Part shown: one piece after another, positions 1,719-51,913 of the stretch
Layout: every line of letters begins with the position of its first letter
Numbering within the stretch: the first letter of the stretch is position 1
DNA from: Clostridia bacterium
GTDB lineage: Bacteria; Bacillota; Clostridia; Oscillospirales; Acutalibacteraceae
DNA length: 55,694 nucleotides
Assembly: GCA_017537365.1 (NCBI GenBank)
Contig: JAFYKZ010000008.1
Span: 1 to 55,694 of the forward strand
Reading direction: 5' to 3'
The notes under the pieces: generated by a model
Told to the model about the DNA's origin: nothing
Databases searched by the model: none
Seen by the model: only the letters and a program-made list of their open reading frames with translations
Translations under genes and position numbers: made by a program

Positions 1719-2078
1719 ATGAATAAAACACCAAAAGAAAAACCTTGTAGGTTATATCTTCGTGTATCTCCCACTGAGAAAAAGAAGATAACCGAAATTG
1801 CAAAATGCTGCGGAATTCCCGTAGCTGAATATCTCCGTAAAAGGGCGTTGGGATATGCTGTGAAAGCAGCCGTTCCCGATGCCTTTTATGATTTCAACGA
1901 AAGTTTAAGTGAACTGCTTAATCGAGAATTATCTCCCCATGTGGAAGCAGCAGCGCTAAAACTCTTTGATGAAATTTACGCCGAGCTTATCGAAGTGCCC
2001 AAGCAAAGCAAGGGCGAAATCATAAAGGAGGTAACAAATTGGCAACCACCGGATTCTGGCCCGTCAAATCCCGATTAA
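1719..2078 (+). CDS. mobC: MobC-like relaxosome accessory protein
   Basis: A 119-aa protein with a short basic N-terminus followed by RLYLRVSPTEKKKITEIAK and CGIPVAEYLRKRALGY. This is the ribbon-helix-helix-like signature of MobC accessory proteins, which bind oriT and help the relaxase to nick. It is preceded by a GAAAGAAGG ribosome binding site. The relaxase gene starts 40 nt before its end, and the relaxase's ribosome binding site (AAGGAGG) lies inside this gene, so the two are translationally coupled. Family assignment is fairly secure; DNA target is not known. Confidence 0.8.
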   Translation: MNKTPKEKPCRLYLRVSPTEKKKITEIAKCCGIPVAEYLRKRALGYAVKAAVPDAFYDFNESLSELLNRELSPHVEAAALKLFDEIYAELIEVPKQSKGEIIKEVTNWQPPDSGPSNPD

Positions 2079-3427
2079 AGGAAGTTATCGACTACGCTAA
2101 CAACCCCGATAAAACAACCGACAAAAAATATTTAGACGAAGATTTGTATGCGACCCTCCGTTATGCGGAAAACGATAAAAAGACCGACCAAACAATGTAT
2201 GTATCCGCTATTAACTGCCCTAAGCAAAGAGCGTATCAATGTATGATGACAACCAAACAGCGCTACGGAAAGTTTGGCGGTAACGTCGCTTATCACGGGT
2301 ATCAGAGTTTTAAGACAGATGAGGTCACTCCGGATGAAGCACACCAAATCGGAACTGAAACCGCAAAACGTATGTGGAAAGAATACGAGGTTGTGGTTAC
2401 TACCCATCTCAACACCGACAATATTCATAATCATATTGTTGTGAATTCCGTTTCCTTTAAAACGGGCAGGAAGTTTGAAAACCACGTTTCCGATCACTAC
2501 AAGCTCAGAGAAATTTCTGACCTTATTTGTGAAGAGCGTGGAAAGAGCGTGCTTCCTCCAAGCAAATTTAAAGGCAGTAGCAAGAAAGAATATTGGGTAA
2601 AGAAAAACGGTGGTATGACCCACCGAGATATGCTTCGCAAAGACATCGACACTATCATTAAAAACTCAACTACTTGGACTCACTTCAAACTAAACCTAAA
2701 AGGCTTTGGATATGAAATTGTAAGAAACGATGATTACGAACACATTTCTGTTAAGGCAGTGGGCTGGAAACGGCCTGTCCGCCTTGATTCACTCGGTGCT
2801 AACTACACCATAGATGCTATTGAAAGAAGAATGGATCACAATTTCGAAACGGTAAATTATGTAGCTATTTACCAAATACGGAAAAGCCCATTATTACAGT
2901 TCGAACGAGAACTCGAATTTGAAATCAACCATTCTCATGATACCGGCACAGTCGTGATTCTCACGTTATTCTATATTTTATTACAACTTTTAAAACTTAC
3001 ACGAGATATTGAAGCTTGGGGCGATGGCGGTCAGGCGCACTCACCATTACTGCGAGAAGCCTTAATCTTTGAAAAGCAACTTGAAAAGGAATACTTCTTC
3101 CTTAAAAACAATAATATCCGCACCGTCGAAGAACTCACAACATTCTGCCGTGAAAAGGAAAACGAAATTGCTACCCTCGAAGCCGAAAGGTCTAAAATTC
3201 GCAACAGTAACCGCCGTCCAAAGTCACCGCAAGAACGTCAAGAAAAATTACACGCCGCAAGGGAGATTACAAAGAAAATAGATCCCTTGCGAGAACAACT
3301 CAAAATGGCAGACTCCGCTTTGGTACGCTTCCCCAAGGTTTGGAATTTGCTCAAAACAGAACACAACATTGAAACGGAAATGGAAGCACGTAATAAAACA
3401 AAAGAGAAAGAGAGATATGGAAGATAA
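2039..3427 (+). CDS. MobP-type relaxase (VirD2-like mobilization nuclease)
   Basis: A 462-aa protein starting at TTG (SD AAGGAGG seven bases upstream). The relaxase domain occupies the first ~250 residues. The N-terminal SRLKEVIDYANNPDKT carries a candidate nucleophilic Tyr19. H123-x6-H130-x-H132 in HLNTDNIHNH is the three-histidine metal site, with HGYQSF before it. A hydrophobic stretch occurs near residue 305, and a charged, coiled-coil-rich tail follows (about 340-450). It would nick oriT, bind covalently to the 5' end and pilot the strand through a helper conjugation system. The stop codon overlaps the start of the next gene (TAATG). Confidence 0.88.
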   Translation: MATTGFWPVKSRLKEVIDYANNPDKTTDKKYLDEDLYATLRYAENDKKTDQTMYVSAINCPKQRAYQCMMTTKQRYGKFGGNVAYHGYQSFKTDEVTPDEAHQIGTETAKRMWKEYEVVVTTHLNTDNIHNHIVVNSVSFKTGRKFENHVSDHYKLREISDLICEERGKSVLPPSKFKGSSKKEYWVKKNGGMTHRDMLRKDIDTIIKNSTTWTHFKLNLKGFGYEIVRNDDYEHISVKAVGWKRPVRLDSLGANYTIDAIERRMDHNFETVNYVAIYQIRKSPLLQFERELEFEINHSHDTGTVVILTLFYILLQLLKLTRDIEAWGDGGQAHSPLLREALIFEKQLEKEYFFLKNNNIRTVEELTTFCREKENEIATLEAERSKIRNSNRRPKSPQERQEKLHAAREITKKIDPLREQLKMADSALVRFPKVWNLLKTEHNIETEMEARNKTKEKERYGR

Positions 3428-31451: not shown

Positions 31452-32156
31452 ATGAAACCGGTTTATAAAAGAGTTTTGCTTAAACTCAGCGGCGAAGTGC
31501 TCGCCGGCGAAAAAGGCTCAGGAATAGATTTCGATAAGGTTTTATCGGTTTGTGAAAGAATAAAAACCTGCACCGAAATGGGTGTTCAGGTTGCAGTTGT
31601 TGTTGGCGGAGGAAATTTCTGGCGCGGCAGAAGCAGCGGTCAGATGGACCGTACAAGAGCCGACCATATGGGAATGCTCGCAACCTCTATCAATGCTTTG
31701 GCGCTTGCCGATGCATTAGAGCTGTTGGGTGTTACCGCTCGCGTTCAAACCGCTATTGAAATGCGCCAGATTGCCGAGCTTTATATCAGAAACAAGGCTG
31801 TTCGCCATTTAGAAAAAGGCAGAGTTGTTATATTCGGTTGCGGAACAGGTAACCCATTCTTCTCTACCGATACTGCCGCAGCTTTGCGTGCTGCCGAAAT
31901 AGGCGCCGATGTTATTTTTAAGGCTACTAATGTTGACGGTGTTTACGATAGCGACCCCAAACTCAATCCCGATGCTAAAAAGTATGATACTTTATCCCAT
32001 ATCGAAGTTTTGCAGCAGGGGCTTCATGTTATGGATAGTACCGCCGCTTCGCTTTGTATGGATAATAGTATTGAAATATTAGTATTTAATCTTGAAAATC
32101 CCGATAATATTGTTTCGGCTATGGTTGGCGAAACTATCGGCACAATAGTTAAATAA
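31452..32156 (+). CDS. pyrH: UMP kinase
   Basis: A 234-aa amino-acid-kinase-fold protein of standard PyrH length: [17 protein letters not shown] at the start, [13 protein letters not shown] (phosphate-binding glycines), [35 protein letters not shown] and [14 protein letters not shown]. It makes UDP from UMP and ATP. It heads the conserved pyrH-frr-uppS-cdsA-dxr cluster. The ribosome binding site TTGGAGTG is close to consensus. Confidence 0.98.
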
Positions 32157-32173
32157 TCAAAAGGAGAACTCTT

Positions 32174-32728
32174 ATGAACGAATTACTTAAAAATACCGAA
32201 GAAAAAATGAATAAAACGGTTGCCGTTTTAGAGCGTGATTATAAATCTATCCGCGCAGGCAGAGCAAATGCCTCTGTTTTAGACCGCGTTACCGTTGATT
32301 ATTACGGTGTTCCAACTCCAATAGGTCAGATGGCTGCTATTTCCACCCCTGAAGCTAGAGTTTTAATGATTTCTCCTTGGGATGCTTCAACCTTAAAGGA
32401 AATTGAGCGCGCAATCTTAACTTCTGATATTGGTATCAATCCTCAAAACGATGGTAAGGTTATCCGCCTTTCTTTCCCACCTCTTACCGAAGAGCGCAGA
32501 AAAGAAATCGTTAAAGAGGTTAAAAAGCTTGCTGAGGATAATAAGGTTGCTATAAGAAACACCCGCCGCGATGCATTAGAAAAACTAAAAGCTCTCAAAA
32601 AGGCTAACACCATAACTGAGGACGATGTTACAAACGGCGAAAAGAAAATCCAAAAATTAACCGATAAATTCTGTGGTGAGATTGATGAAATCGCAGGATT
32701 AAAGGAAAAAGAAATTTTAGAAATCTAA
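32174..32728 (+). CDS. frr: Ribosome recycling factor
   Basis: A 184-aa protein of the exact usual length. Signatures are SIRAGRANASVLDRVTVDYY, TPIGQMAAISTPEAR, RAILTSDIGINPQNDG and PPLTEERRKEIVKEVKKLAE. With EF-G it splits the post-termination ribosome. It starts 17 nt after pyrH and is followed by a hairpin with a T run, so transcription of the downstream lipid genes is probably attenuated here. Confidence 0.98.
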   Translation: MNELLKNTEEKMNKTVAVLERDYKSIRAGRANASVLDRVTVDYYGVPTPIGQMAAISTPEARVLMISPWDASTLKEIERAILTSDIGINPQNDGKVIRLSFPPLTEERRKEIVKEVKKLAEDNKVAIRNTRRDALEKLKALKKANTITEDDVTNGEKKIQKLTDKFCGEIDEIAGLKEKEILEI

Positions 32729-32731
32729 TAT

Positions 32732-32765
32732 TAATCGGGCGGAAATCTTGCCGCCCGATTTTTGC
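32732..32765 (+). terminator. Terminator-like hairpin after frr
   Basis: AATCGGGCGG / CCGCCCGATT perfect 10-bp stem followed by a run of six T. uppS follows 40 nt later without an evident new promoter, so partial readthrough is likely. Confidence 0.85.
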
Positions 32766-32801
32766 CTAATTATTTCCAAAAATTTTAAGAGGTGAAAAAC
32801 T

Positions 32802-33515
32802 GTGGGTTTATTTACTAAAACTCCAAAAACCCGCCCCGTTCCAACACATATCGCAATTATTATGGATGGAAACGGCAGATGGGCAAAAAAACGCGCGTTG
32901 CCTAGAACCGCAGGTCATATTGCAGGTGCTAAAACATTCAAAGAAATCGCAAAATACTGCAATAAAATCGGTCTTAAATATTTAACTGTTTATGCTTTTT
33001 CAACTGAAAACTGGAAAAGACCAAAAGATGAAGTTGAAGGCATTATGAATCTGCTCAGGGATTATCTTAAAGATACCGAAAACTTTAAGGAAGATAATAT
33101 CAGACTTAAATTTATCGGAAACTTAGAGCCTTTGGCAGATGATATTAAAGAATTAATTAAACACAACGAAGAAACCTCGGCCGACGCTACCGGATTGCAG
33201 GTTCAAATCGCAATTAACTATGGCGGTAGAGATGAGATAACAAATGCGGTTAAGAAAATCGTTGCAAGCGGTGTTTCTCCTGACGAAATAACCGAAGACC
33301 TGATTTCTCAAAATCTTTATACATGTGATATACCCGACCCTGATTTCATAATAAGACCCAGCGGTGAATACCGCCTTTCAAATTATCTTATTTGGCAGTC
33401 CGCTTATGCTGAATATTGGTTTTCTGATGTTTTATGGCCCGATTTCAAACCTAAACATTTAGAACTTGCTATTGATGAATTCCATCATAGAAATCGTAGA
33501 TTCGGAGGAGTTTGA
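32802..33515 (+). CDS. uppS: Undecaprenyl diphosphate synthase-type isoprenyl transferase
   Basis: A 237-aa cis-prenyltransferase: HIAIIMDGNGRWAKKR (catalytic Asp), RTAGHIAGAKTFKEI, YAFSTENWKRP, INYGGRDEI and DFIIRPSGEYRLSNYLIWQ. It condenses FPP with IPP units to give the C55 carrier lipid precursor for cell wall synthesis. The GTG start follows AGAGGTG. It lies just upstream of cdsA; dxr and ispG of the isoprenoid pathway are in the same cluster. Confidence 0.97.
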   Translation: MGLFTKTPKTRPVPTHIAIIMDGNGRWAKKRALPRTAGHIAGAKTFKEIAKYCNKIGLKYLTVYAFSTENWKRPKDEVEGIMNLLRDYLKDTENFKEDNIRLKFIGNLEPLADDIKELIKHNEETSADATGLQVQIAINYGGRDEITNAVKKIVASGVSPDEITEDLISQNLYTCDIPDPDFIIRPSGEYRLSNYLIWQSAYAEYWFSDVLWPDFKPKHLELAIDEFHHRNRRFGGV

Positions 33516-33520
33516 GCTTT

Positions 33521-34381
33521 ATGAAAACTCGTATTATATCAGGAATAATAATGGGCGCTATCGTTATATCGGTTTTATGCCTCGGCTTTTTTATTGAGCC
33601 GCTTATTATAACTCTCGGTATCGCTGTTATAACTGCTGTTGCAATTTATGAGCTTCTCCATAATGCCGCAGGCATTAAATCAAAGCTTTGCATTATAGGT
33701 GCTTGCAGTTTTTCGGCTTTATTTATATTAGGAAATGATGATAGATTAAAAGAGCTTCTATTAAAAGCTTTCTCTATCAAAGCCATAACCATTGATACCT
33801 TTGATGCATATTGGTCTTATTCAGTTACCGCAATTATAATTCTTTACTTTATGTTTGCAGTATTTATGACCCTTAAAAACCATAAGGATTTTGACCTTGC
33901 AAAAATAGTTTCGCTTTTTGCAATGCCTTTGCCCTATGCTTATGCGTTTTCTTGCCTTTCAGGTGTTATAAAACACGAAAGCGGCATATATTATTTACTG
34001 TTGCTCTTAAACTTCTCGTCAGTTTGCGATATTGGCGCTTATTTTACAGGTGTTACAATCGGCAAACACAAGCTCTGCCCCAATATCAGCCCTAAAAAGA
34101 CGGTTGAGGGTGCTGTGGGCGGTATTGTTTCAAGTATTATCGTAACAATTATTTTATCCCTTTGCTTTGATAAAGGCATTGTTCTTCCTTTGATTTTAAC
34201 TGTTCCGTTCTGCATTTTAGGTATGGTTGGAGACCTTTTTGCCTCAGCTATAAAACGCTCGGTTGGTTTAAAGGATTACGGAAGCTTAATTCCCGGCCAC
34301 GGTGGTATTTTAGACCGTGTTGATAGCATAATAATGATAGTGCCATTGCTTTATTTAGCAATAGAAATAGGTATAATATAA
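33521..34381 (+). CDS. cdsA: Phosphatidate cytidylyltransferase
   Basis: A 286-aa polytopic membrane enzyme with about eight hydrophobic segments and the CdsA signature at the C-terminus, SAIKRSVGLKDYGSLIPGHG followed by GILDRVDS. It makes CDP-diacylglycerol for phospholipid synthesis. The ATG at 33521 is ten bases after GGAGGAG; an in-frame TTG at 33512 is too close. Its stop overlaps the dxr start (TAATG), so the two are coupled. Confidence 0.96.
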   Translation: MKTRIISGIIMGAIVISVLCLGFFIEPLIITLGIAVITAVAIYELLHNAAGIKSKLCIIGACSFSALFILGNDDRLKELLLKAFSIKAITIDTFDAYWSYSVTAIIILYFMFAVFMTLKNHKDFDLAKIVSLFAMPLPYAYAFSCLSGVIKHESGIYYLLLLLNFSSVCDIGAYFTGVTIGKHKLCPNISPKKTVEGAVGGIVSSIIVTIILSLCFDKGIVLPLILTVPFCILGMVGDLFASAIKRSVGLKDYGSLIPGHGGILDRVDSIIMIVPLLYLAIEIGII

Positions 34382-35517
34382 TGAAAAGTTTAATTATTTT
34401 AGGTTCAACCGGCTCAATAGGAACTCAAAGTCTTGATATCTGCCGCAGAGACGGTTATAAGGTTTGCGGTTTGGTGGCAGGAAGCAATATTGAACTACTC
34501 GAAAAACAAGCGCGCGAGTTCAAACCCTCAAAGGTTGCCGTTTTTAATGAAGAAAAAGCTAAAGAATTAAAAATAAAGCTTAATGACACCGATATTAAAG
34601 TTTTATCGGGTGTGGATGGTGTTTGCGAGGTAGCTTCCGGAGAAGGCGAAATGGTTATAAACGCAATCGTTGGTATTGCAGGTTTAAGACCAACCCTAGC
34701 AGCCATTGATGCCTGCAAAACTATTGCGCTTGCAAACAAAGAAACCTTGGTTACAGGCGGCGAAATAGTAAACCGCAAGCTCAAAGAAAAGGGTGTTAAG
34801 CTTCTTCCTGTTGATAGCGAGCATTCAGCAATTTTCCAATCGCTTCAAGGTGCGCCCGAAAATTCACTTATAAAAATTTTATTAACTGCATCGGGTGGTC
34901 CATTCTTTAATAAAACCCGAAAAGACCTCGAAAATGTTACAGTTAAAGAAGCTCTAAACCATCCAAACTGGTCTATGGGTGCTAAAATAACTATTGACTC
35001 TGCAACCCTGATGAACAAGGGCTTAGAGGTTATTGAGGCGGTGCATTTGTTTGGTGTTCCTGCCGATAATATCGAGGTTTTGGTGCATAGACAAAGCATT
35101 ATCCACTCGGGTGTTGAATTATCTGACGGTGCGGTTATTGCCCAGCTTGGAACTCCCGATATGAAGCTTCCAATAGCTTATGCTTTAACCTATCCTGAAA
35201 GAAGTGAAACCGCTTTTGAAAAGCTTGATTTGTTTAAGGTGGGAACTTTAACCTTTGAAAAACCCGATACCGATACCTTCCGTTGTCTTCCCTTATGCAT
35301 TAAAGCCATTAACGAGGGTGGATTAGCGCCAACCGCAGTAAACGGCGCAAACGAGGAAGCGGTTAGACTTTTCCTTGACGGCAAAATTAAATTCTTGCAG
35401 ATTGCCGATTTAGTGGAAAAAGCGCTCATAAATGTTAATAATAAAAAGGATTTCTCGGTTGAGGATATTTTCGAAACCGATAAATTGGCTCGTCAGTTAG
35501 TTAGAAATTCTATTTAA
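34381..35517 (+). CDS. dxr: 1-deoxy-D-xylulose 5-phosphate reductoisomerase
   Basis: A 378-aa NADPH enzyme of the MEP pathway: LGSTGSIGTQSLDICRRDG (nucleotide binding), ALANKETLVTGGE, LPVDSEHSAIFQSLQG (metal-binding Asp/Glu), ASGGPF, NHPNWSMGAKITIDSATLMN, and PTAVNGANEEAV. It converts DXP to MEP. ispG, a later step of the same pathway, is two genes downstream, and uppS uses the final product, so this cluster feeds carrier-lipid synthesis. Confidence 0.98.
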   Translation: MKSLIILGSTGSIGTQSLDICRRDGYKVCGLVAGSNIELLEKQAREFKPSKVAVFNEEKAKELKIKLNDTDIKVLSGVDGVCEVASGEGEMVINAIVGIAGLRPTLAAIDACKTIALANKETLVTGGEIVNRKLKEKGVKLLPVDSEHSAIFQSLQGAPENSLIKILLTASGGPFFNKTRKDLENVTVKEALNHPNWSMGAKITIDSATLMNKGLEVIEAVHLFGVPADNIEVLVHRQSIIHSGVELSDGAVIAQLGTPDMKLPIAYALTYPERSETAFEKLDLFKVGTLTFEKPDTDTFRCLPLCIKAINEGGLAPTAVNGANEEAVRLFLDGKIKFLQIADLVEKALINVNNKKDFSVEDIFETDKLARQLVRNSI

Positions 35518-35523
35518 ATTCAG

Positions 35524-36585
35524 GTGATTTTTATTTCTGTTATAATTGATATTTGGAATAATGTATGGCCATATTTAATCGCGATAGGCTTGTTTTTGCT
35601 GCTTATTACTATTCACGAATTCGGTCATTTCATAGCGGCAAAATCATTAGGCGTTAGAGTTAATGAATTTGCTATTGGCTTTGGTCCAACTCTTTTTTCT
35701 ATAAGAGGAAAAGAAACCAAATATATGTTAAAGCTTTTCCCTCTTGGCGGATACTGCGCTATGGAGGGTGAAGACGAGGAAAGCGGCGACACTAAGGCTT
35801 TTTGCAACAAATCTGCCCTAAAAAGATTTGTTATTGTGGCGATGGGTGCGATTTTTAATATTATTCTGGGTGTTATAATCGTCTCAATCACCCTTATTCC
35901 TCAAAAGAGCTTTACTTCAACCGTTATAGCAGAATTTGAGCCGAATGCAAAAAGTGAGCAAAGTGGCTTAAAGATTAATGATAAAATCATTGAGGTTGAC
36001 GGCAGAAAAATTTACACAACCTATGATTTAAGCTATTCTTTTACTAATGTTGATGACGGAAAACTTGATATAACCGTTCTTAGAGACGGAGAGAAAAAGC
36101 TTATAAAAAATGTAAATTTCTTAACCGAAACTGAGGACGATATTAAATATATCACCCTCGATTTCAAGGTTTACGGTATAAAGAAAACCTTTTTATCATT
36201 TATTAAACACACTGTAAACAGTACCCTTTCATTTTGCGCGGTTATTTGGCGAAGCTTGTTTGATTTGCTTGCAGGAAAATACGGTATAAGCGCTATATCG
36301 GGTCCTGTTGGTGTTACGGCTGCAATAGGAAATGTTGCAAAGCAAAGCCTTATAAACATTCTTCCTATTATGGCGTTGATAACTATAAACCTTGGTTTAT
36401 TCAATTTATTGCCTATCCCCGCTCTTGACGGTGGCAGACTTCTATTTATTCTGATAGAAATTATTTTCAGAAAACCCGTGCCTCAAAAGTATGAAACCTT
36501 GGTTCACACTATTGGATTTTTTATCCTAATCGGATTTATGTTGCTTATTTCCGCAAAAGATATATGGACGTTAATTTTTAAGTAA
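35524..36585 (+). CDS. rseP: Site-2 intramembrane metalloprotease RseP/RasP
   Basis: A 353-aa M50 protease with four membrane segments: zinc site H31-E-F-G-H35 (TIHEFGHFIAAK), then FAIGFGPTLF, a PDZ domain at about 120-200, and the second metal motif NLLPIPALDGG. It cleaves membrane-bound anti-sigma factors and remnant signal peptides. The start is uncertain: GTG at 35524 lies inside AGGTGA, so an ATT at 35533, six bases after that site, is an alternative start. Confidence 0.95.
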   Translation: MIFISVIIDIWNNVWPYLIAIGLFLLLITIHEFGHFIAAKSLGVRVNEFAIGFGPTLFSIRGKETKYMLKLFPLGGYCAMEGEDEESGDTKAFCNKSALKRFVIVAMGAIFNIILGVIIVSITLIPQKSFTSTVIAEFEPNAKSEQSGLKINDKIIEVDGRKIYTTYDLSYSFTNVDDGKLDITVLRDGEKKLIKNVNFLTETEDDIKYITLDFKVYGIKKTFLSFIKHTVNSTLSFCAVIWRSLFDLLAGKYGISAISGPVGVTAAIGNVAKQSLINILPIMALITINLGLFNLLPIPALDGGRLLFILIEIIFRKPVPQKYETLVHTIGFFILIGFMLLISAKDIWTLIFK

Positions 36586-36599
36586 GGATATGAGATTTT

Positions 36600-37652
36600 A
36601 TGTTTACAAATGATAAAACAAAACAGGTAAAAGCAGGTAATATTTATATTGGCGGTGGCGCACCGATATCGGTTCAGTCTATGCTTTGCGCCGAGGCGCA
36701 TGATATTGAAGGCAACATAGCTCAGGCTAAAAGACTCGAAGCCGCAGGCTGTGATATTGTTCGCGTTTCTGTTCCCGATAAAGAGGCTTTAAAAACTGTT
36801 GAAGCTTTAAAGAAAAATATAAATATTCCCCTTGTTGCAGATATTCATTTTGATTATAGACTCGCGATTGACAGTGTTTCGGCAGGAGTTGATAAGGTTA
36901 GAATTAACCCTGGCAACATCGGTTCTGATGATAATGTTAAGCTTGTTGCCGATGCTTGCAGAAATGCAGGTGTTCCGATAAGAATAGGTGTAAACTCAGG
37001 CTCTCTTGAAAAAAACATTTTGGCTAAATACGGCTCTGCAACACCTGAAGCTATGGTTGAAAGCGGTCTTTATCATATTTCCTTGCTTGAAAAATTTGAT
37101 TTTACCGATATAGTTTTATCCCTTAAATCCTCTGATACCGCGAGAATGTATCAAGCTTACTGCTTAGCCGCAGAAAAATGCCCTTATCCGCTTCATTTAG
37201 GTGTTACCGAAGCGGGCACTGAGAATATGGGTGTTATAAAATCTGCCGCAGGAATCGGTGGATTGCTTCTTAGAGGAATAGGCTCAACTATTCGTATTTC
37301 TTTAACCGATGACCCTGTCAAAGAGGTTGAAGCAGGTATCAAGCTTCTTAAAGCTCTTGATATGAGAAACGGCGGTATTAAGTTTGTTTCCTGTCCCACC
37401 TGCGGAAGAACCCAGATAGACCTTATCGGTCTTGCAAAAGAAGCAGAAAAAAGACTCGAAAAGATAAATAAAAATATAACAGTTGCTATTATGGGTTGTG
37501 TTGTTAACGGTCCCGGAGAAGCCTCTGCCGCAGATATAGGTATTGCCGGCGGCAAGGAATGCGGAGTTATATTCAAAAAAGGCGAAATTATAAAGAAACT
37601 CCCCGAAAACCAACTTATAGACGCTTTATTTGAGGAAATTGAAAAATTGTAA
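36600..37652 (+). CDS. ispG: 4-hydroxy-3-methylbut-2-enyl diphosphate synthase (flavodoxin/ferredoxin)
   Basis: A 350-aa enzyme. The TIM-barrel part has ISVQSMLCAEAHDIEGNIAQ, CDIVRVSVPDKEA, ADIHFDYRLAI and RINPGNIG. The C-terminal iron-sulfur part supplies cysteines in SCPTCGRTQIDL and GCVVNGPGEA for one 4Fe-4S cluster, followed by GIAGGKECGVIF. It performs the reductive ring-opening step of the MEP pathway. It starts 14 nt after rseP and 17 nt before polC. Confidence 0.97.
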   Translation: MFTNDKTKQVKAGNIYIGGGAPISVQSMLCAEAHDIEGNIAQAKRLEAAGCDIVRVSVPDKEALKTVEALKKNINIPLVADIHFDYRLAIDSVSAGVDKVRINPGNIGSDDNVKLVADACRNAGVPIRIGVNSGSLEKNILAKYGSATPEAMVESGLYHISLLEKFDFTDIVLSLKSSDTARMYQAYCLAAEKCPYPLHLGVTEAGTENMGVIKSAAGIGGLLLRGIGSTIRISLTDDPVKEVEAGIKLLKALDMRNGGIKFVSCPTCGRTQIDLIGLAKEAEKRLEKINKNITVAIMGCVVNGPGEASAADIGIAGGKECGVIFKKGEIIKKLPENQLIDALFEEIEKL

Positions 37653-37669: not shown

Positions 37670-40600
37670 ATGGGTAAAGCCGCCCTGCTTGAAATTTTCG
37701 GCGAATACATAAACGAAGAACTAAGACTTAAATTAAATAACGGCGAAATTGAAAACTGCCGTCTTGATATAGAAAACCGCTCGCTTGAACTTGGCTTGCG
37801 GTTTGATAGTTATATAAATAAAGCTGTTCAGTCTGCGCTTCATAGCGCTTTAAAGCAAGCCTTAAACCTTAACGGCATTTTAATTGAATACGAATTTTCA
37901 AAGGACTCTCTTTGCAGTGAGTCTTGCGCCGATATATCCTCTGAGCTTAAAATTAAAAACCCTGCTTTAAACGGATATTTTGCCAATGCCGAATATGAAT
38001 TATCAGGTGAAAATTTGAAAATCACCTTGAAATACGGCGGTTTAAATAAAATAACCTCGCTTGATTTCGAAAAGCATTTTTGCGATATAGTAGAAAAACG
38101 ATTCAGTAGAAATATTTCTATTTCTTTTGACGGTCAGTTAGAAGATACCGAAATAGAATTACCTCCCGTAGAATATTCTGCTCCAGCTGAGGCTAAAAAA
38201 CCTCAAAAGACCGAAAGCAAAGCCCCTGAAATTAAATTTGAAAAAAGAGCCGAAAAGCCTGCTAACGGACTGGTATACCTTGATAATCCCAAACTTTTCT
38301 ATGGCAGAAGAATCGATTCTAACACTAAACCTATGATAGAGGTTTCAGGTGATGACAGTGAAATTTGCTGTTGGGGCGAAGTTTTTGAGACCGAAGTTAG
38401 AAGCATTAAAACCAAACGCGGCGATACTAATATTTTCACCTTTTCTTTCAGCGACCATACAAATTCTTTAACCGCCACTATGTTTGTTGACCCCAAAAGA
38501 ATGGGTGATGTGGCTCCTGTTAAAAAAGGTAATTTCATTTTAGTTAATGGTCTTTTTGAATTTGATAACTATAAAAAAGATTTCATTGTTAAGCCTCGCG
38601 CTATGGCGCTCTTGCAGAAATACGAGGAAACTGATGATTACGAAGGCGAAAAAAGAGTTGAGCTTCATTGCCATACTAATATGTCCTCAAAGGATGCGGT
38701 TTCAAGTGCCGAAAGCATTATAAACCAAGCTTTTAAATGGGGGCATAAGGCAATCGCCATCACCGACCACGGTGTTGTTCAGGCTTATCCCTCTGCCGCA
38801 GGCGCAGTAAAGGGTATTCGCAAATCAGGTGGCGATTTTAAGGTTATATACGGTGTTGAGGGCTATTTTGTTGACGATATTGCAAATGATGTTTCAGAGC
38901 TTAACTCTAAGCAGCTTGCCAAAATGCGCCACCACCAAATTATTCTGGTTAAAAACTTAGTGGGTCTTAAAAACCTTTATAAGCTAATCTCGGAGGCTCA
39001 CTTAAAAGATTTCCATGGCAAACCGATTACTCTCAGAAGCAAGCTTGATACTCTCAGAGAGGGTTTAATTATCGGTTCTGCCTGTGAGCAGGGCGACCTC
39101 TATTCTGCTATTATTGAGGGCAAAAGCGAGGAAGAATTATTAAGAATTGCCGATTATTATGATTATCTCGAAATTCAACCTCTCGGCAATAATGCCTTTA
39201 TGGTTAGAGAATCTTTAAACCCCGATAAAAAGGATAAGAAAACCGGCGCGGTTATTCCTAATAAATTTAAACATGTTACCGATTTTGAGGTTATCAAAAA
39301 CTTTAACCGCAAGGTTGTAGAACTTGCAGATAAGTTGGGCAAACCTGTTGTTGCAACAGGAGATGTTCATTTCCTTAAAAAAGATGATGAAATTATCCGT
39401 AAAATCTTAATGGCAGGTCAGGGCTTTGATGATTTCGATAATCAAGCTCCACTCTACCTTAAAACAACCGCTGAAATGCTTGAAGATTTCAGTTATTTCG
39501 GTGATAGAGCAAAAGAATTTGTTATTGATAACCCAAATAAGATTGCCGATATGATAGACGGTGATGTTATCCCCGTTCCTGAGGGTAACTATCCCCCTGT
39601 TATTGAGGGGTCGGACGAGGAGCTTCGCCGCATTTGTTGGGATAATGCTCATAAGATTTACGGTGAAAATGTTCCCGAAATAGTTGAAAAGAGACTTGAA
39701 AAAGAACTTAATTCTATTATCAATAACGGCTTCTCAATAATGTATATATCCGCTCAAAAGCTCGTGGCATATAGCGAGGAAAACGGATATTTAGTAGGCT
39801 CACGAGGTTCGGTTGGCTCTTCCTTTGTTGCAACAATGGCAGGAATTTCAGAGGTTAACCCCTTGGCTCCCCACTATGTTTGTCCAAAATGTCAATATAG
39901 CGAATTTTTCACAGACGGTTCAGTGGGTTCAGGCTTCGATTTGCCCGAGAAAAACTGCCCTCATTGTAATACTCCGCTCGACCGAAACGGCCACGATATT
40001 CCTTTCGAAACCTTCCTGGGCTTTAAAGGAGATAAAGTTCCTGATATTGACCTTAACTTCTCGGATATTTTCCAAACCGAAGTTCAGAAATATACCGAAA
40101 GTCTTTTCGGTAGCGAAAATGTTTTCAAGGCAGGAACCATTTCAACCGTTGCCGAGAAAACCGCATTTGGTTTTTCCAAGGCTTATGCTGAGAAAAAGGG
40201 TATTACTTTAAGCCAAGCCGAACTAAACCGCTTGGCAAAGCTTGTTGAAAGTGCAAAAATCAAAACAACAACAGGTCAACACCCTGCGGGTATGATTGTA
40301 GTACCGAGGGACAAAACGATTTACGATTTCTGTCCCATTCAGCACCCCGCAGATGATGTTAATGCCGATGTTATAACCACCCATTTTGATTTCCATTCTA
40401 TTCACGATACCATCTTGAAGCTTGATGAGCTCGGTCATGTTGTTCCGTCTACCTATAAGTATTTAGAGGAATATACAGGTATCCCCGTAAGTGAGGTTTC
40501 TATGAGCGATGAAAAGGTTTACAGTCTTTTCACCTCTCCTGAGGCTCTTGGTGTTACCGCCGAGGAAATCGAATCTCAGACAGGAACTTACTGTATACCC

Positions 40601-41491
40601 GAGTTTGGCACCTCCTTTGTTCGAGGAATGCTTGCCGACTGTAAACCAAAAAATTTCTCTGATTTATTGCAGATTTCAGGTCTTTCTCACGGTACGGATG
40701 TTTACTTAGGAAACGCAAAAGACCTTATAGATAAAGGTATCTGCACCATTTCAGAGGTTATCGGTACCCGTGATAACATAATGGTTTATCTTATCCATCA
40801 GGGCATGGAAGAAGGCAGAGCATTTAAAATAACCGAAACCGTTCGTAAAGGTTTGGTTGCAAAGGGCAAGGTTTCAAAAGAAGAATGGGGCGCAATGGAG
40901 GAGGATATGAGAGCAGTCGGCGTGCCTGAATGGTATATCGAAAGCTGTTATAAAATTAAGTATATGTTCCCGAAAGCCCACGCCGCCGCTTATGTTATCG
41001 GTGCTTTGCGACTTGCTTGGTATAAGGTTTATTATCCCCTCGAATTTTACTGTGCATATTTCACCGCCCGCCCTGAGGATGTTGATGTTCCAACTATTTT
41101 AGGCGGTCCTGAGGCAGTTAAACGCTATCTTCGTGATATTAAGGCAAAGGGCAAAGAAGCCACCAAAAAAGAGCTTGATGTATATGACAATATGCTCATA
41201 TTCAATGAAATGATGGCAAGAGGCATTGAGGTTCTACCTATTGATATAAATAAATCCCACGCTATGAAATATGTTCCTGAAAACGGCAAAATGCGTTTGC
41301 CTTTCGGTTCGCTTTCAGGTGTTGGTGAAAAAGCGGCATACTCTATTTATGAAGCTGCCCAAAAAGGAAATTTTGTGTCGATAGAAGATTTTCAACTTGA
41401 AGCAGGGGTTTCAAAAACCATCATTCAAAACCTTGCTGACCTTGGCGCTATGAACGATTTGCCCGATACTAACCAAATTTCTATGTTCTAA
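37670..41491 (+). CDS. polC: DNA polymerase III alpha subunit, PolC type, lacking the exonuclease domain
   Basis: A 1273-aa replicase. Order: N-terminal domains (1-200), OB fold (about 215-320), PHP domain (330-570), polymerase palm and fingers with a cysteine cluster (YVCPKCQYSEF, CPHCNTP) and catalytic VPDIDLNFS, then PHP-distal fingers and a C-terminal helical region ending DTNQISMF. Usual PolC is about 1430-1460 aa, with a DEDD exonuclease inserted in PHP. Here E397 (GVEGYFVDD) and H421/H422 (RHHQIIL) are only about 24 residues apart, and no exonuclease motif such as FDxETTG exists anywhere. The reading frame is intact. PHP metal ligands H333, H335, D342, H367, E397, H421/H422, C472, D565 and H567 are all present. 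Confidence 0.95.
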   Translation: MGKAALLEIFGEYINEELRLKLNNGEIENCRLDIENRSLELGLRFDSYINKAVQSALHSALKQALNLNGILIEYEFSKDSLCSESCADISSELKIKNPALNGYFANAEYELSGENLKITLKYGGLNKITSLDFEKHFCDIVEKRFSRNISISFDGQLEDTEIELPPVEYSAPAEAKKPQKTESKAPEIKFEKRAEKPANGLVYLDNPKLFYGRRIDSNTKPMIEVSGDDSEICCWGEVFETEVRSIKTKRGDTNIFTFSFSDHTNSLTATMFVDPKRMGDVAPVKKGNFILVNGLFEFDNYKKDFIVKPRAMALLQKYEETDDYEGEKRVELHCHTNMSSKDAVSSAESIINQAFKWGHKAIAITDHGVVQAYPSAAGAVKGIRKSGGDFKVIYGVEGYFVDDIANDVSELNSKQLAKMRHHQIILVKNLVGLKNLYKLISEAHLKDFHGKPITLRSKLDTLREGLIIGSACEQGDLYSAIIEGKSEEELLRIADYYDYLEIQPLGNNAFMVRESLNPDKKDKKTGAVIPNKFKHVTDFEVIKNFNRKVVELADKLGKPVVATGDVHFLKKDDEIIRKILMAGQGFDDFDNQAPLYLKTTAEMLEDFSYFGDRAKEFVIDNPNKIADMIDGDVIPVPEGNYPPVIEGSDEELRRICWDNAHKIYGENVPEIVEKRLEKELNSIINNGFSIMYISAQKLVAYSEENGYLVGSRGSVGSSFVATMAGISEVNPLAPHYVCPKCQYSEFFTDGSVGSGFDLPEKNCPHCNTPLDRNGHDIPFETFLGFKGDKVPDIDLNFSDIFQTEVQKYTESLFGSENVFKAGTISTVAEKTAFGFSKAYAEKKGITLSQAELNRLAKLVESAKIKTTTGQHPAGMIVVPRDKTIYDFCPIQHPADDVNADVITTHFDFHSIHDTILKLDELGHVVPSTYKYLEEYTGIPVSEVSMSDEKVYSLFTSPEALGVTAEEIESQTGTYCIPEFGTSFVRGMLADCKPKNFSDLLQISGLSHGTDVYLGNAKDLIDKGICTISEVIGTRDNIMVYLIHQGMEEGRAFKITETVRKGLVAKGKVSKEEWGAMEEDMRAVGVPEWYIESCYKIKYMFPKAHAAAYVIGALRLAWYKVYYPLEFYCAYFTARPEDVDVPTILGGPEAVKRYLRDIKAKGKEATKKELDVYDNMLIFNEMMARGIEVLPIDINKSHAMKYVPENGKMRLPFGSLSGVGEKAAYSIYEAAQKGNFVSIEDFQLEAGVSKTIIQNLADLGAMNDLPDTNQISMF

Positions 41492-47860: not shown

Positions 47861-49906
47861 TTAAAGAGTGTAATAAATTTCCGAATCAGAGAAACTGAAC
47901 GAATCTTGTGTTTCAAATGAGATTTTTATAAATTCGTCGCATTTAAGTAACGGGAAAAGCTTTATATCCGAGGCAGATAAACAATATTCCTTATTAATAT
48001 GGAATTCGCATTCACTGCAAGCGGTTTTAAATTTTATTTTACAATCGCCGTTAACCAACAAATCCAGATATGCTTTTTTCAAAATAATGGATTTATCACG
48101 TTTTTCAGGATAAAACGGTTTTGTTTCAAGCTTAAAATTTATTTTTCTTTCAGAGTAACCAAGCTCATCCGAATTAAAGGCTATTATTCTGTCCTTCTCG
48201 CCCGAAAGTCCCGCCAAAAAGCAAAAACTTGTTTCTTTTAAGGATAAAAGAAGCGAAATATTGTTTCCCTCAGAATAAGCCCCCTTAACAGAATATTCCT
48301 CAGGTAAATGCCAAATGAATATTTTAGCATTTTTCTGAGGATTAGAAAAATCCTCTATATTAATCATAACAACTTTATCGCTTAAAAACAACATATAATA
48401 TTCTTGCCAAATAGTACCGATAGCATTTTCAATATCATCCAGCTCAGTTTTTTTCAAGAGTGGACTTATTTTGCTTGATAAATTATAAATACTGTTTTTA
48501 TAAAAACAATAAATATCCCCTGAGGTTTCTTCAAAGATTACACCCTTTGAAAATCCTACCGTCCCGTTTTTTGAAATACTTCCTAAACTCAAATTCAAAG
48601 TATCTATTTTAAATTTGCCCGAATCATAAAATATTTCAGGATTATCTGATAAAACAGTCGATTGATTTATAGCTTTAGCACCCTGTATTTCAAGCGTATA
48701 AATACCTTTTTCCTTAAAAGCTAATATTTTATCCTCAAACGCGCATAAACCCGTTACATTATCCTTGGGCGAGCCTATTATATTGTCTGTTAGTGCAGGA
48801 AAATATAAAGGTCTATCATACGATGAATAATAAACCTCACCCTTTTCATTTCCTCCGCTAAATACTATTTTATCCCCTAGTTTTTCTACAACAGTACAGC
48901 TAAGAACCTTTTCTCTGCCTCGTTCAGGCAGTTTTTCTGCTGATATTCTTAAATTGTTTTCATCGTAAGACATCATTCTCGGAAAAGCAAAACTTTGATT
49001 GTTTTTAGTGAAATAAAAAACTCCTTTTTCTCGGTCAACATGAAATACTATTTCCTGTCCGTTAAAATAAGCGGAAGAAGAAGTCTCATATTCATAAACA
49101 CGCCAATCTATATATTCATACATAGAAATATACACCCTGCAATTAACTGTGTTATTTGCGAGTTGTGAAAACGGAAGTCTGAAACTATCGGAATAACCGT
49201 CAGTAGTGAAATAAGCATTAAACCAACCGTCAAGCATATTTAATGCCTCCAACATTCGCGGCTTCGGGGTATAAACCGCTCCGTTTTCCGCCGCCAACTC
49301 ATAAGAATCTCCTCTGCCGTTTATATAAACAGTTGGGGTATAATAACCCGTGCAAATCTGCCACGCGGTATACTCCGAATTGATTTCATATATTCTATAT
49401 TCTTTTTGCGAAAAATTTTCTTGATTTACAAGTGAAACAACCGCAAAAATTCCGCCGCCGCTTTGTGATTTGCCGGTGTAATATAAAATATTATACGGAA
49501 GATAAAAAGTTTCATCATCAACTCTGCCAAAATGTATACTTCCCATACTTCTAAAAGTATTGTCCGGAAAGACTATTCCTGTATATACCTTGCAGTTTGA
49601 ATCGTCATAATACATATCAAGTTCAGCAAGCTTTCCTTTTAAACCCTCAAACTCAATTTCCGTATCGGTTAAACGATATTTATAATCAAAGGCATCCTCC
49701 CAAACATCCTCAAAAATTCTATTTTGAGGCGAAGTGTTTATTGCAGGGCGCGATACTATTTTCTTATCCTTATACCATACGTTTTCGCAAACCGAAAACC
49801 CGTTTACTGCCTTGTTTTCTTTCTCACTCGTTAAATCAAAACCTTTAATATTATCGAAAACCGAAAAGCTTTTATCTTTTTTCTTAATTAGCGGTTTATA
49901 TTTCAT
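47861..49906 (-). CDS. Large phage structural protein, probable head-tail hub or stabilization protein
   Basis: A 681-aa beta-rich protein with no signal peptide. Repeated strand pairs (GEVYYSSYDRPLYFPALTDN, NVTGLCAFEDKILAFKEKGI, YCFYKNSIYNLSSKI) suggest a beta-propeller like that of P22 gp10-type packaged-DNA stabilization proteins. This assignment is inferred from pattern and from position after a P22-like portal and a connector-like gene. Its ATG overlaps the preceding stop (TAATG). It could instead be a tail or receptor-binding component. Confidence 0.55.
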   Translation of the reverse strand: MKYKPLIKKKDKSFSVFDNIKGFDLTSEKENKAVNGFSVCENVWYKDKKIVSRPAINTSPQNRIFEDVWEDAFDYKYRLTDTEIEFEGLKGKLAELDMYYDDSNCKVYTGIVFPDNTFRSMGSIHFGRVDDETFYLPYNILYYTGKSQSGGGIFAVVSLVNQENFSQKEYRIYEINSEYTAWQICTGYYTPTVYINGRGDSYELAAENGAVYTPKPRMLEALNMLDGWFNAYFTTDGYSDSFRLPFSQLANNTVNCRVYISMYEYIDWRVYEYETSSSAYFNGQEIVFHVDREKGVFYFTKNNQSFAFPRMMSYDENNLRISAEKLPERGREKVLSCTVVEKLGDKIVFSGGNEKGEVYYSSYDRPLYFPALTDNIIGSPKDNVTGLCAFEDKILAFKEKGIYTLEIQGAKAINQSTVLSDNPEIFYDSGKFKIDTLNLSLGSISKNGTVGFSKGVIFEETSGDIYCFYKNSIYNLSSKISPLLKKTELDDIENAIGTIWQEYYMLFLSDKVVMINIEDFSNPQKNAKIFIWHLPEEYSVKGAYSEGNNISLLLSLKETSFCFLAGLSGEKDRIIAFNSDELGYSERKINFKLETKPFYPEKRDKSIILKKAYLDLLVNGDCKIKFKTACSECEFHINKEYCLSASDIKLFPLLKCDEFIKISFETQDSFSFSDSEIYYTL

Positions 49907-50253
49907 TATAATGCCCCGCCTTCCGCTTGGGGTAAAACATCCTCAATCTTTTCGGTTTTGCAAAGAACAGTTGCGCGTTTAGCGTTATAGATAGCAGTAT
50001 AAATCTGGTTTTTATCCTGTTCACCCAATGCGAACGATAAAAGCATCGCTATTCCACAGCATACCGCCTCACCAACCACCGCACTGCATTTAACCTCCTC
50101 AGACAATTCTTCAATCGGGCTTAATTTTAAATCGGTTAAAATCTGATTTATAAATTCTAAATCTCTTTTTGATGTACCATCTAACAGTTCAGTATCGTTA
50201 TTTATCCCAAGCCTTAAAAAAGCTCCTTTTAAAAGTTCATATCCTTTCATCAT
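49906..50253 (-). CDS. Probable head-tail connector protein
   Basis: A 115-aa, mainly helical protein (GYELLKGAFLRLGINNDTEL, FINQILTDLKLSPIEEL, AVCCGIAMLLSFALGEQDKN). Its size and position directly after the portal gene match small connector or adaptor proteins such as P22 gp4-like factors. No firm family match can be claimed. It starts with ATGATG behind GAGGTG and overlaps the portal gene end by 17 nt and the hub-like gene by one base. Confidence 0.5.
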   Translation of the reverse strand: MMKGYELLKGAFLRLGINNDTELLDGTSKRDLEFINQILTDLKLSPIEELSEEVKCSAVVGEAVCCGIAMLLSFALGEQDKNQIYTAIYNAKRATVLCKTEKIEDVLPQAEGGAL

Positions 50254-51835
50254 TTTTCACCTCTTCGCCTTCTTTTATAAGCGCACTTATGTCTTTAACC
50301 AAACCGTCAGGGATACGCAAAAGCAACTGCTCACGGTTAATAATACCCTTGTCGTAAAGACTTAAAAGGGTTTCGGTTATTTCCCTGTCGGTAAATGAAA
50401 CATTTTCCGAAACCTCAACATTAGCGCAAAGCATTAAAGCTTTATATCGCTTTGCATCAAAAGGAATATATTTAATCCCTGCCTTGCTCGATTGCTTTAA
50501 GCTTCGGTTTCCGTAATAAGCAACCCAGAAATCCGCCCAGATGCGCGCAGTATCCTCAATAAAGGTATAATAACGGCTTTTAACTATTTTAAGAGGCATA
50601 AGCGCCGCATCACGCATCGCAATAAGCGCGGTTGCATTGTCGGCTTTACTGTCTCCAAGCGCCACCTCATTAGCACCGCTTTGAGTTAAGGTGTTATCGA
50701 TAAGAGTATTTATGCTCGCATCAAAATCCTTAGTAAAAACAGGCGGATTTATATATTTAACCGCGCCCGCAACATCCTCGTTGCTTCCAAAAACCTTAAT
50801 TATTTGTCCTGGGTCATTGGTTATTTTATCGGTAACCGTATCACCGTTTACAACCATTATAGGCATACCCGTAGTCATAGCCGACCACACATTTGCGGTT
50901 ATCATTCTGTTTATTGCGATTTGGTTTGGAATTAAATATGTAACCTCGCTCTCGCCATAAATAGAATCGGTTTTTCTCTCCCATGTAAAAATAGAAATCG
51001 GATAAAGCTTAAGACCTGTTTCAAAAGGTTCTCTTATGGTAAACTTTTCAGTAGTTTTGATGCATTTAATGGTATATTCATAAGCATTTTTATATTCCTT
51101 GTAAAGCTTGGTAAATTGAGTAACCTTGCCGTCTATTGCTTCTTCGGCTATTCCCTTTAAAACCGAAGTATCCGCACCTGAAAGTCTTGCCTCTCTTAAA
51201 ACCTCTTCTACATCCTTTTTGCTCGAAAGTATAATATAGCCCTGCTTTTGAACCTCCTGTATATAAGGGTCTCCAAAAACCACATCATCAATACTTAAAA
51301 CCTCGCAAGCTATATCCCCGTTTATCCTTACCTTTTTTTCATAATCGGCAAAAAGTCCGGTGTAAATTCCGTTATCCCAATAAGTATATAAAACCGCTGT
51401 GCCGCATATATACGCATTTCTGAGAATTTTTTCGCTAATTTCCGCAAATTTAAGTCTTTCGGCAGTAACCTTATAATAATTATCAAAAGCATTCATTACG
51501 AAATTGATTTCATTATCGGTAAGTTTGCCTGAGAAACTTTGTGTTGAATCCGAAAGCTCAATACTTTCGTTGGAAGTTGGTATACCCTCGGCAGAAAATC
51601 TTACCGCAGGATTATAGCTTAAAATCTGAGAAATTTTATAGTCGCCTATTCTTTTTATAACATTATGACGAACAAGAGGTCGGTCGTTACCGCATTTAGC
51701 ACCATGCCACTGGTCGCCAACATAAAACCGCTCGTTTAAGCGCGACTGCTCATATATCCCCTTGCTTCCTACCGATGCTTTAAACTCAGTACCCTTTTTA
51801 TATTGTTCAAATATCTCCTTTGGTGAGTAGTCCAT
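50237..51835 (-). CDS. P22-like portal protein
   Basis: A 532-aa protein. N-terminal NERFYVGDQWHG and RPLVRHNVIKRIGDYKISQI, central SIFTWERKTDSIYGESEVTY and IPNQIAINRM, then TQSGANEVALGDSKADNATA are typical of P22/phage-plasmid-like portals, which form the dodecameric ring for DNA entry. The C-terminal acidic helix (EGEEVKNDER) ends the protein. The ATG at 51835 follows AGGAGG. It is placed after the capsid gene, whereas most phages have portal before scaffold and capsid. Confidence 0.82.
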   Translation of the reverse strand: MDYSPKEIFEQYKKGTEFKASVGSKGIYEQSRLNERFYVGDQWHGAKCGNDRPLVRHNVIKRIGDYKISQILSYNPAVRFSAEGIPTSNESIELSDSTQSFSGKLTDNEINFVMNAFDNYYKVTAERLKFAEISEKILRNAYICGTAVLYTYWDNGIYTGLFADYEKKVRINGDIACEVLSIDDVVFGDPYIQEVQKQGYIILSSKKDVEEVLREARLSGADTSVLKGIAEEAIDGKVTQFTKLYKEYKNAYEYTIKCIKTTEKFTIREPFETGLKLYPISIFTWERKTDSIYGESEVTYLIPNQIAINRMITANVWSAMTTGMPIMVVNGDTVTDKITNDPGQIIKVFGSNEDVAGAVKYINPPVFTKDFDASINTLIDNTLTQSGANEVALGDSKADNATALIAMRDAALMPLKIVKSRYYTFIEDTARIWADFWVAYYGNRSLKQSSKAGIKYIPFDAKRYKALMLCANVEVSENVSFTDREITETLLSLYDKGIINREQLLLRIPDGLVKDISALIKEGEEVKNDERI

Positions 51836-51913
51836 AGTTTTCCTCCTATTGTTAAAACACACGTTTATAAGATTAAAGCCCGACCCGACGGGCCGAGCCT
51901 TAATTTATTTTAA

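Follow-up and report, generated by a model that had tools for sequence, protein, structure and literature searches.

The window analysed here, a stretch of 55,694 nucleotides from a gut Clostridia bacterium of the Acutalibacteraceae, contains an intact polC gene that follows a series of other genes on the same strand. The features relevant to this gene and its product are the following:

31452..37652, + strand: upstream genes pyrH, frr, uppS, cdsA-like, dxr, rseP and ispG (NCBIfam; the cdsA-like match scores under its curated cut-off)
37670..41491, + strand: polC open reading frame, intact, 1273 aa (Pfam and NCBIfam)
38660..39373, + strand: PHP domain with nine ligands, motif HHDHEHCDH, spanning residue 331 (Pfam start) to slightly past H567 (AF2 mean pLDDT 90.5)
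38861..38932, + strand: loop of 24 residues (398-421) separating the PHP ligand E397 from H422, the usual DEDDh exonuclease insertion site
40043..40051, + strand: palm motif KVPDIDLNF with D792 and D794 (alignment A1, pair invariant)
41474..41488, + strand: C-terminal clamp-binding-like motif QISMF, of the QxxLF type (sequence; type according to PMC3919608)

The whole protein passes two NCBIfam PolC equivalogs (NF001688, 1403 bits for a cut-off of 873; TIGR01405, 1273.9 bits for a cut-off of 1043.45) and is thus a DNA polymerase III alpha of the PolC type. A Pfam profile search identified the PHP, DNA_pol3_alpha, finger and HHH_6 domains and no RNase_T domain along the 1273 residues, and the order OB, PHP, Pol3 core and HhH is the usual one for PolC. 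Residues D792 and D794 of the palm are presumably the catalytic pair. The N-terminal domains NI (21.1 bits, cut-off 22) and NII (14.6 bits, cut-off 26.3) give weak but correctly placed matches, and both are known to be poorly conserved in PolC (PMC3919608). The AF2 model matches 3f2b, a crystal construct from which the exonuclease had been deleted, with TM scores of 0.89/0.94. The initial annotation, which had recognised a PolC deprived of its exonuclease domain and otherwise complete, was right in both respects. The genome (1.72 Mb, 98% complete) holds one polC and one dnaE, and the search for a second polC proposed at that time found none in it. The DnaE appears to be full length by its score (1638 bits with NF005298, cut-off 1260) and, judging from its intact PHP motif, is probably a DnaE1 rather than a DnaE3.

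What distinguishes this PolC is the segment between E397 and H422. It measures 24 residues here and 197-223 residues in the 48 exonuclease-bearing sequences that we aligned from the same order, where, as is usual in PolC, a DEDDh exonuclease of about 210 residues is inserted at this site. The position of the missing insert had been correctly indicated from the start. The intact frame of 1273 aa stands, but the shortfall is nearer 180 than the 165 aa first proposed, since the frame of the nearest exonuclease-bearing relative (L093, genus g31) has 1454 aa. What remains of the linker is similar to the connector at the C-terminal end of the exonuclease domain in sister genera; judged by eye, this would fit a deletion beginning directly after YFVDD.

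The same short loop occurs in all 29 same-genus loci fetched (36 same-genus genomes were searched), in a 97% identical public record (L052) and in 36 of the 40 loci of a named collection, the other four of which stop before the site; ten sequences are identical between the 29 loci and this collection. L052 is itself a metagenome assembly, which is the one point in favour of an assembly or annotation error, but recurrence in L052 and in 29 same-genus loci makes an assembly deletion untenable, so that the probability of an artefact is practically nil. The absence of the domain is therefore a trait of the lineage, as had been suspected, and the comparison with close relatives, which might have revealed the domain in the same genus, found every member fetched to be devoid of it. 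In two genomes of this genus, G013 (95% complete) and G028 (94%), a full PolC match was absent and only DnaE-like matches were present, together with a short piece in G028; this reflects either a loss or a missing contig.

PolC enzymes of this kind, hereafter exo-less, are less unusual than the initial annotation had supposed. They were reported in 2013 by Timinskas et al. (PMC3919608) in Clostridia and Negativicutes, plus one copy in Thermotogae, and made up 6% of the PolC sequences and 16% of the set with PolC and DnaE1. The present genus thus adds members to an already published kind. We called a genome exo-less when a single BLAST stretch ran across the loop. By this rule, and with a PolC match threshold of E 1e-60 in the order sample, 18 of the 136 PolC-matching genomes of the order (147 drawn), 20 of the 138 of the class (147 drawn) and 55 of the 91 of the phylum (119 drawn) were exo-less; 34 of the remaining phylum genomes had the longer form and two, truncated (G362 and G388), were left unclassified. 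All the calls checked on fetched sequences were confirmed as exo-less (18/18 for the order, 16/20 for the class, where G247, G269, G290 and G311 were not among the genomes fetched, and 29/55 for the phylum). The class figure is slightly low, since the BLAST rule missed G203, which is exo-less with a 57-residue loop. Four partial loci (L083, L089, L090 and L091) were excluded from the loop counts. The frequency in the class is no surprise given the 16% of the 2013 study, which is close to 20/138, while the majority found in the phylum sample is far above the overall figure given there.

One family of the same order, f10, had no PolC match at E 1e-60 in 10 of its 11 sampled genomes (G045, G068, G085, G099, G113, G138, G151, G161, G171 and G181), and the eleventh, G126, contained only a PolC fragment with stops; the four genomes tested all encode a DnaE with an intact PHP. 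Some Clostridia are known to have DnaE1 alone (PMC3919608).

We inferred the history of the domain from PolC trees built with the exonuclease region removed. They indicate at least five changes of state in the order (73 sequences) and at least nine over the order, class and phylum samples together (107 sequences), these being parsimony counts that are blind to the direction of change. In the PolC tree, our genus (g1) is sister to the exonuclease-bearing g31, an AU test on 23 sequences rejected a single clade uniting g1 with the exo-less g30 (p 0.020), and the DnaE tree (30 sequences) also joins g1 with g31 (support 97). Family f96, which lies outside the class, was examined in a tree of 67 sequences. 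Two species of its genus g264, L276 (G438) and L241 (G411), have sister PolCs (support 99) that are 92% identical over the PHP domain, which is intact in both. In L276 the exonuclease is still recognisable (HMM E 1.2e-6), with its DEDDh columns reading AAGGE, and in L241 it is deleted, leaving a 39-residue loop with flanks as in L276; their nearest neighbours, L271 and L275, have an active exonuclease. Family f96 thus appears, from its sequences, to show the loss under way, with a decayed and a deleted copy within one genus. L276 is the only sequence for which we claim a decayed exonuclease. Four others carry inserts without DEDDh residues at the same site (L221 and L222 in f57, L223 and L225 in f60; 150-161 and 327-347 residues according to the family), which we considered as dead exonucleases and rejected, as an HMM of the 48 PolC exonuclease domains misses them (E 0.07 to 1.2).

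The opposite polarity, with the exo-less form older in part of the phylum and several later gains of the exonuclease, could draw on the exo-less majority of the phylum sample (55/91) and on the indifference of parsimony counts to direction. We consider it very improbable: the exonuclease domains examined are homologous and occupy one site, a decayed copy adjoins a deleted one in f96, and our genus is nested inside the exonuclease-bearing family f1 in both the PolC and the DnaE trees. Homology at one site and this nested position favour loss, and the best reading for this genus is that the exonuclease was lost and not primitively absent.

Lacking the proofreading domain need not amount to lacking proofreading, as the PHP domain may represent a second nuclease site. 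Its ligands, identified by alignment, are H333, H335, D342, H367, E397, H422, C472, D565 and H567, and they conform to the nine-ligand pattern HHDHEH[C/H]DH of PHP exonucleases. The motif HHDHEHCDH is whole in all 131 sequences without a working exonuclease (83 from the order, a set of 15 with the domain absent and four with a non-DEDDh insert, a further 18, and a set of 10 with the domain absent and one with it decayed), although these are related by descent and 10 of the 83 from the order repeat the sequence of another. By comparison, a PHP ligand is broken in four of the 80 exonuclease-bearing sequences (L247, L274, L277 and L278), always by replacement of the eighth ligand, D, by N, and within two families only (f98 and f146). 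The DEDDh residues were verified in 78 of these 80, L247 and L248 being supported by the FDxETTG motif only. No sequence examined has therefore lost both sites, as every exo-less one keeps its PHP ligands and the four with a broken PHP keep the exonuclease. Conservation is by itself no demonstration of compensation, since the 48 exonuclease-bearing sequences of the order also retain all nine ligands (48/48), which may alternatively serve stability or another reaction.

The comparison with characterised enzymes helps to place this PolC. The Bacilli PolCs of Geobacillus kaustophilus (3f2b) and Enterococcus faecium (9qpc) share its OB-PHP-Pol3-HhH order and carry the DEDDh exonuclease (removed in the 3f2b construct) that it lacks, but they read GNVH where it reads GDVH, one PHP ligand being changed. 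The G. kaustophilus enzyme, in which one ligand is mutated, is inactive as an exonuclease at its PHP site (PMC5636811), and the literature covered here yielded no report of PHP exonuclease activity for any PolC. The PHP-exonuclease DnaE1 enzymes of Mycobacterium tuberculosis and Taq combine a nine-ligand PHP with a short E-H loop, as here; the present protein is a PolC and a candidate PHP exonuclease. That loop, which adjoins the PHP site and is the one into which the PolC exonuclease is inserted, has 29 residues in M. tuberculosis, 18 in Taq and 9 in E. coli (PMC5636811); it has 24 in our PolC against 19-20 in the DnaE1 of 30 genomes, all of which (30/30) retain their nine PHP ligands. The exo-less PolCs of PMC3919608 likewise have no Exo insertion in the PHP and come from genomes with DnaE1, and that study counts them as PolC, the DEDDh insert being a hallmark and no requirement; decayed copies such as the one in f96 are not described in the parts of it covered here.

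A stand-alone DEDDh exonuclease that proofreads in trans would be a possible substitute, and we searched for RNase_T (PF00929) proteins in our own genome and in the order, class and phylum samples (class at E 1e-4). Strong stand-alone DEDDh proteins do exist in other exo-less groups, with RNase_T matches in 9 of the 10 sampled f2 genomes and in all three of f19-g19, and our genome encodes a single RNase_T protein, of 298 aa, that passes the cut-off, plus one sub-threshold match. The search for such proteins suggested by the initial annotation thus had a positive outcome, but the 298-aa protein, whose best NCBIfam match is KapD, under cut-off, is common to 10 of the 11 f1 genomes, exonuclease-bearing genera included, and we rejected it as compensation for that reason. 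No RNase_T match was found in 13 of the 20 exo-less class genomes (E 1e-4), so trans replacement is not general; nor was there one in either of the two f24 genomes (86 and 89% complete) or in 15 of 54 other exo-less phylum genomes, four of the latter being inferred from their absence among the matches listed. In a quick exonuclease tree, 8 of the 11 f2 stand-alone sequences group with those of the exonuclease-bearing f7 (support 97) and none nests among the 48 PolC exonuclease domains (support 92), which gives no support to the fission of the PolC exonuclease into a separate gene in f2 or f19-g19. Supply in trans consequently appears improbable. At the other extreme, PolC errors might simply go unproofread, with a raised mutation rate and mismatch repair alone to correct them. 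A known proofreader has indeed been lost, and three of the four exo-less clades have raised relative branch lengths (25 genomes) for PolC and DnaE alike, the exo-less/exo-bearing ratios being 1.89 and 1.27 in g1, 1.90 and 1.34 in g30, and 1.35 and 1.49 in f2, for PolC and DnaE respectively. However, the fourth clade, f19-g19, is slower (0.62 and 0.88), the DnaE ratios span only 0.88-1.49, the trait lasts through whole families, and the PHP ligands are intact in every exo-less sequence examined. The mixed rates settle nothing on this point, and we give a mutator state little credence. MutS occurs in each of the 20 exo-less genomes of the class and also in 123 of the 127 others, its presence being therefore unspecific to the exo-less ones.

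A different possibility, raised in the discussion of PMC3919608, is that DnaE1 carries out bulk replication and PolC has a limited role in which proofreading matters less. This agrees with the lack of a PolC match in 10 of the 11 f10 genomes and the intact DnaE PHP of the four tested, and with the larger branch ratio of PolC than of DnaE in g1 and g30 (1.9 versus 1.3). Against it, the palm aspartates and PHP ligands are kept in all 29 genus members fetched, as is a QxxLF-type end wherever the C terminus is complete, PolC is slower in the exo-less f19-g19, and its ratio in f2 lies under that of DnaE. Such a demotion of PolC is compatible with proofreading at the PHP site; as the explanation of the loss we regard it as unlikely.

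The reading that we favour, and consider reasonably probable, is that this polC was inherited vertically, in single copy, within an uncultured Clostridia genus which lost the exonuclease and proofreads through zinc PHP sites together with mismatch repair. With a short loop, sized as in PHP-exonuclease DnaE enzymes, the PHP site could still operate; the zinc centre of PolC, like that of DnaE1, would then excise the mismatched primer termini that PolC leaves, mismatch repair acting as a backup, and the DEDDh domain would become redundant, making its repeated decay and deletion possible. With no general supply in trans, the PHP site is the candidate left for proofreading. A S. aureus PolC without its exonuclease is a fast polymerase (PMC3656037). 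With a wider scope we propose, more tentatively and at somewhat under even chances, that a DEDDh domain nested in the PHP loop constitutes two redundant proofreaders of which lineages may lose either and never both: Bacilli-type PolCs would have lost a PHP ligand, and many Clostridia and their relatives would have lost the exonuclease by decay and then deletion, relying on PHP proofreading alone and often having no RNase_T-family nuclease.

Clostridia are described as mostly having three active proofreaders, and in Pol III alpha subunits it is the PHP and not the DnaQ proofreader that is said to be inactivated (PMC12926913); L276 is one exception to the latter statement. In the parts of the articles covered (PMC3919608, PMC12926913, PMC5636811, PMC12592400, PMC3656037, PMC11963600 and PMC11890065), we found neither a genus that combines decayed and deleted exonucleases, nor the exo-less frequency in a species-diverse phylum sample, nor the pattern of never losing both sites. 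Exo-less clades offer a natural experiment on a possible proofreading role of the PHP site in PolC. They also bear on PolC as a drug target (ibezapolstat), as enzymes such as this one drop out when the RNase_T insertion is required for inclusion, a filter applied in at least one in-silico survey of the PolC spectrum (PMC11963600).

Some relatives have second, shorter PolC-like genes (L139, L140, L141 and L142) that match the phage polymerase family phrog_405, the one in L140 having PHP and Pol3 domains by Pfam. Elsewhere in the window, two open reading frames on the - strand, of 681 aa (47861-49906) and 541 aa (50237-51862), have no Pfam match at 1e-5, and a MobA/VirD2-like relaxase is encoded at 2039-3427, so that a mobile element may sit at the window start.
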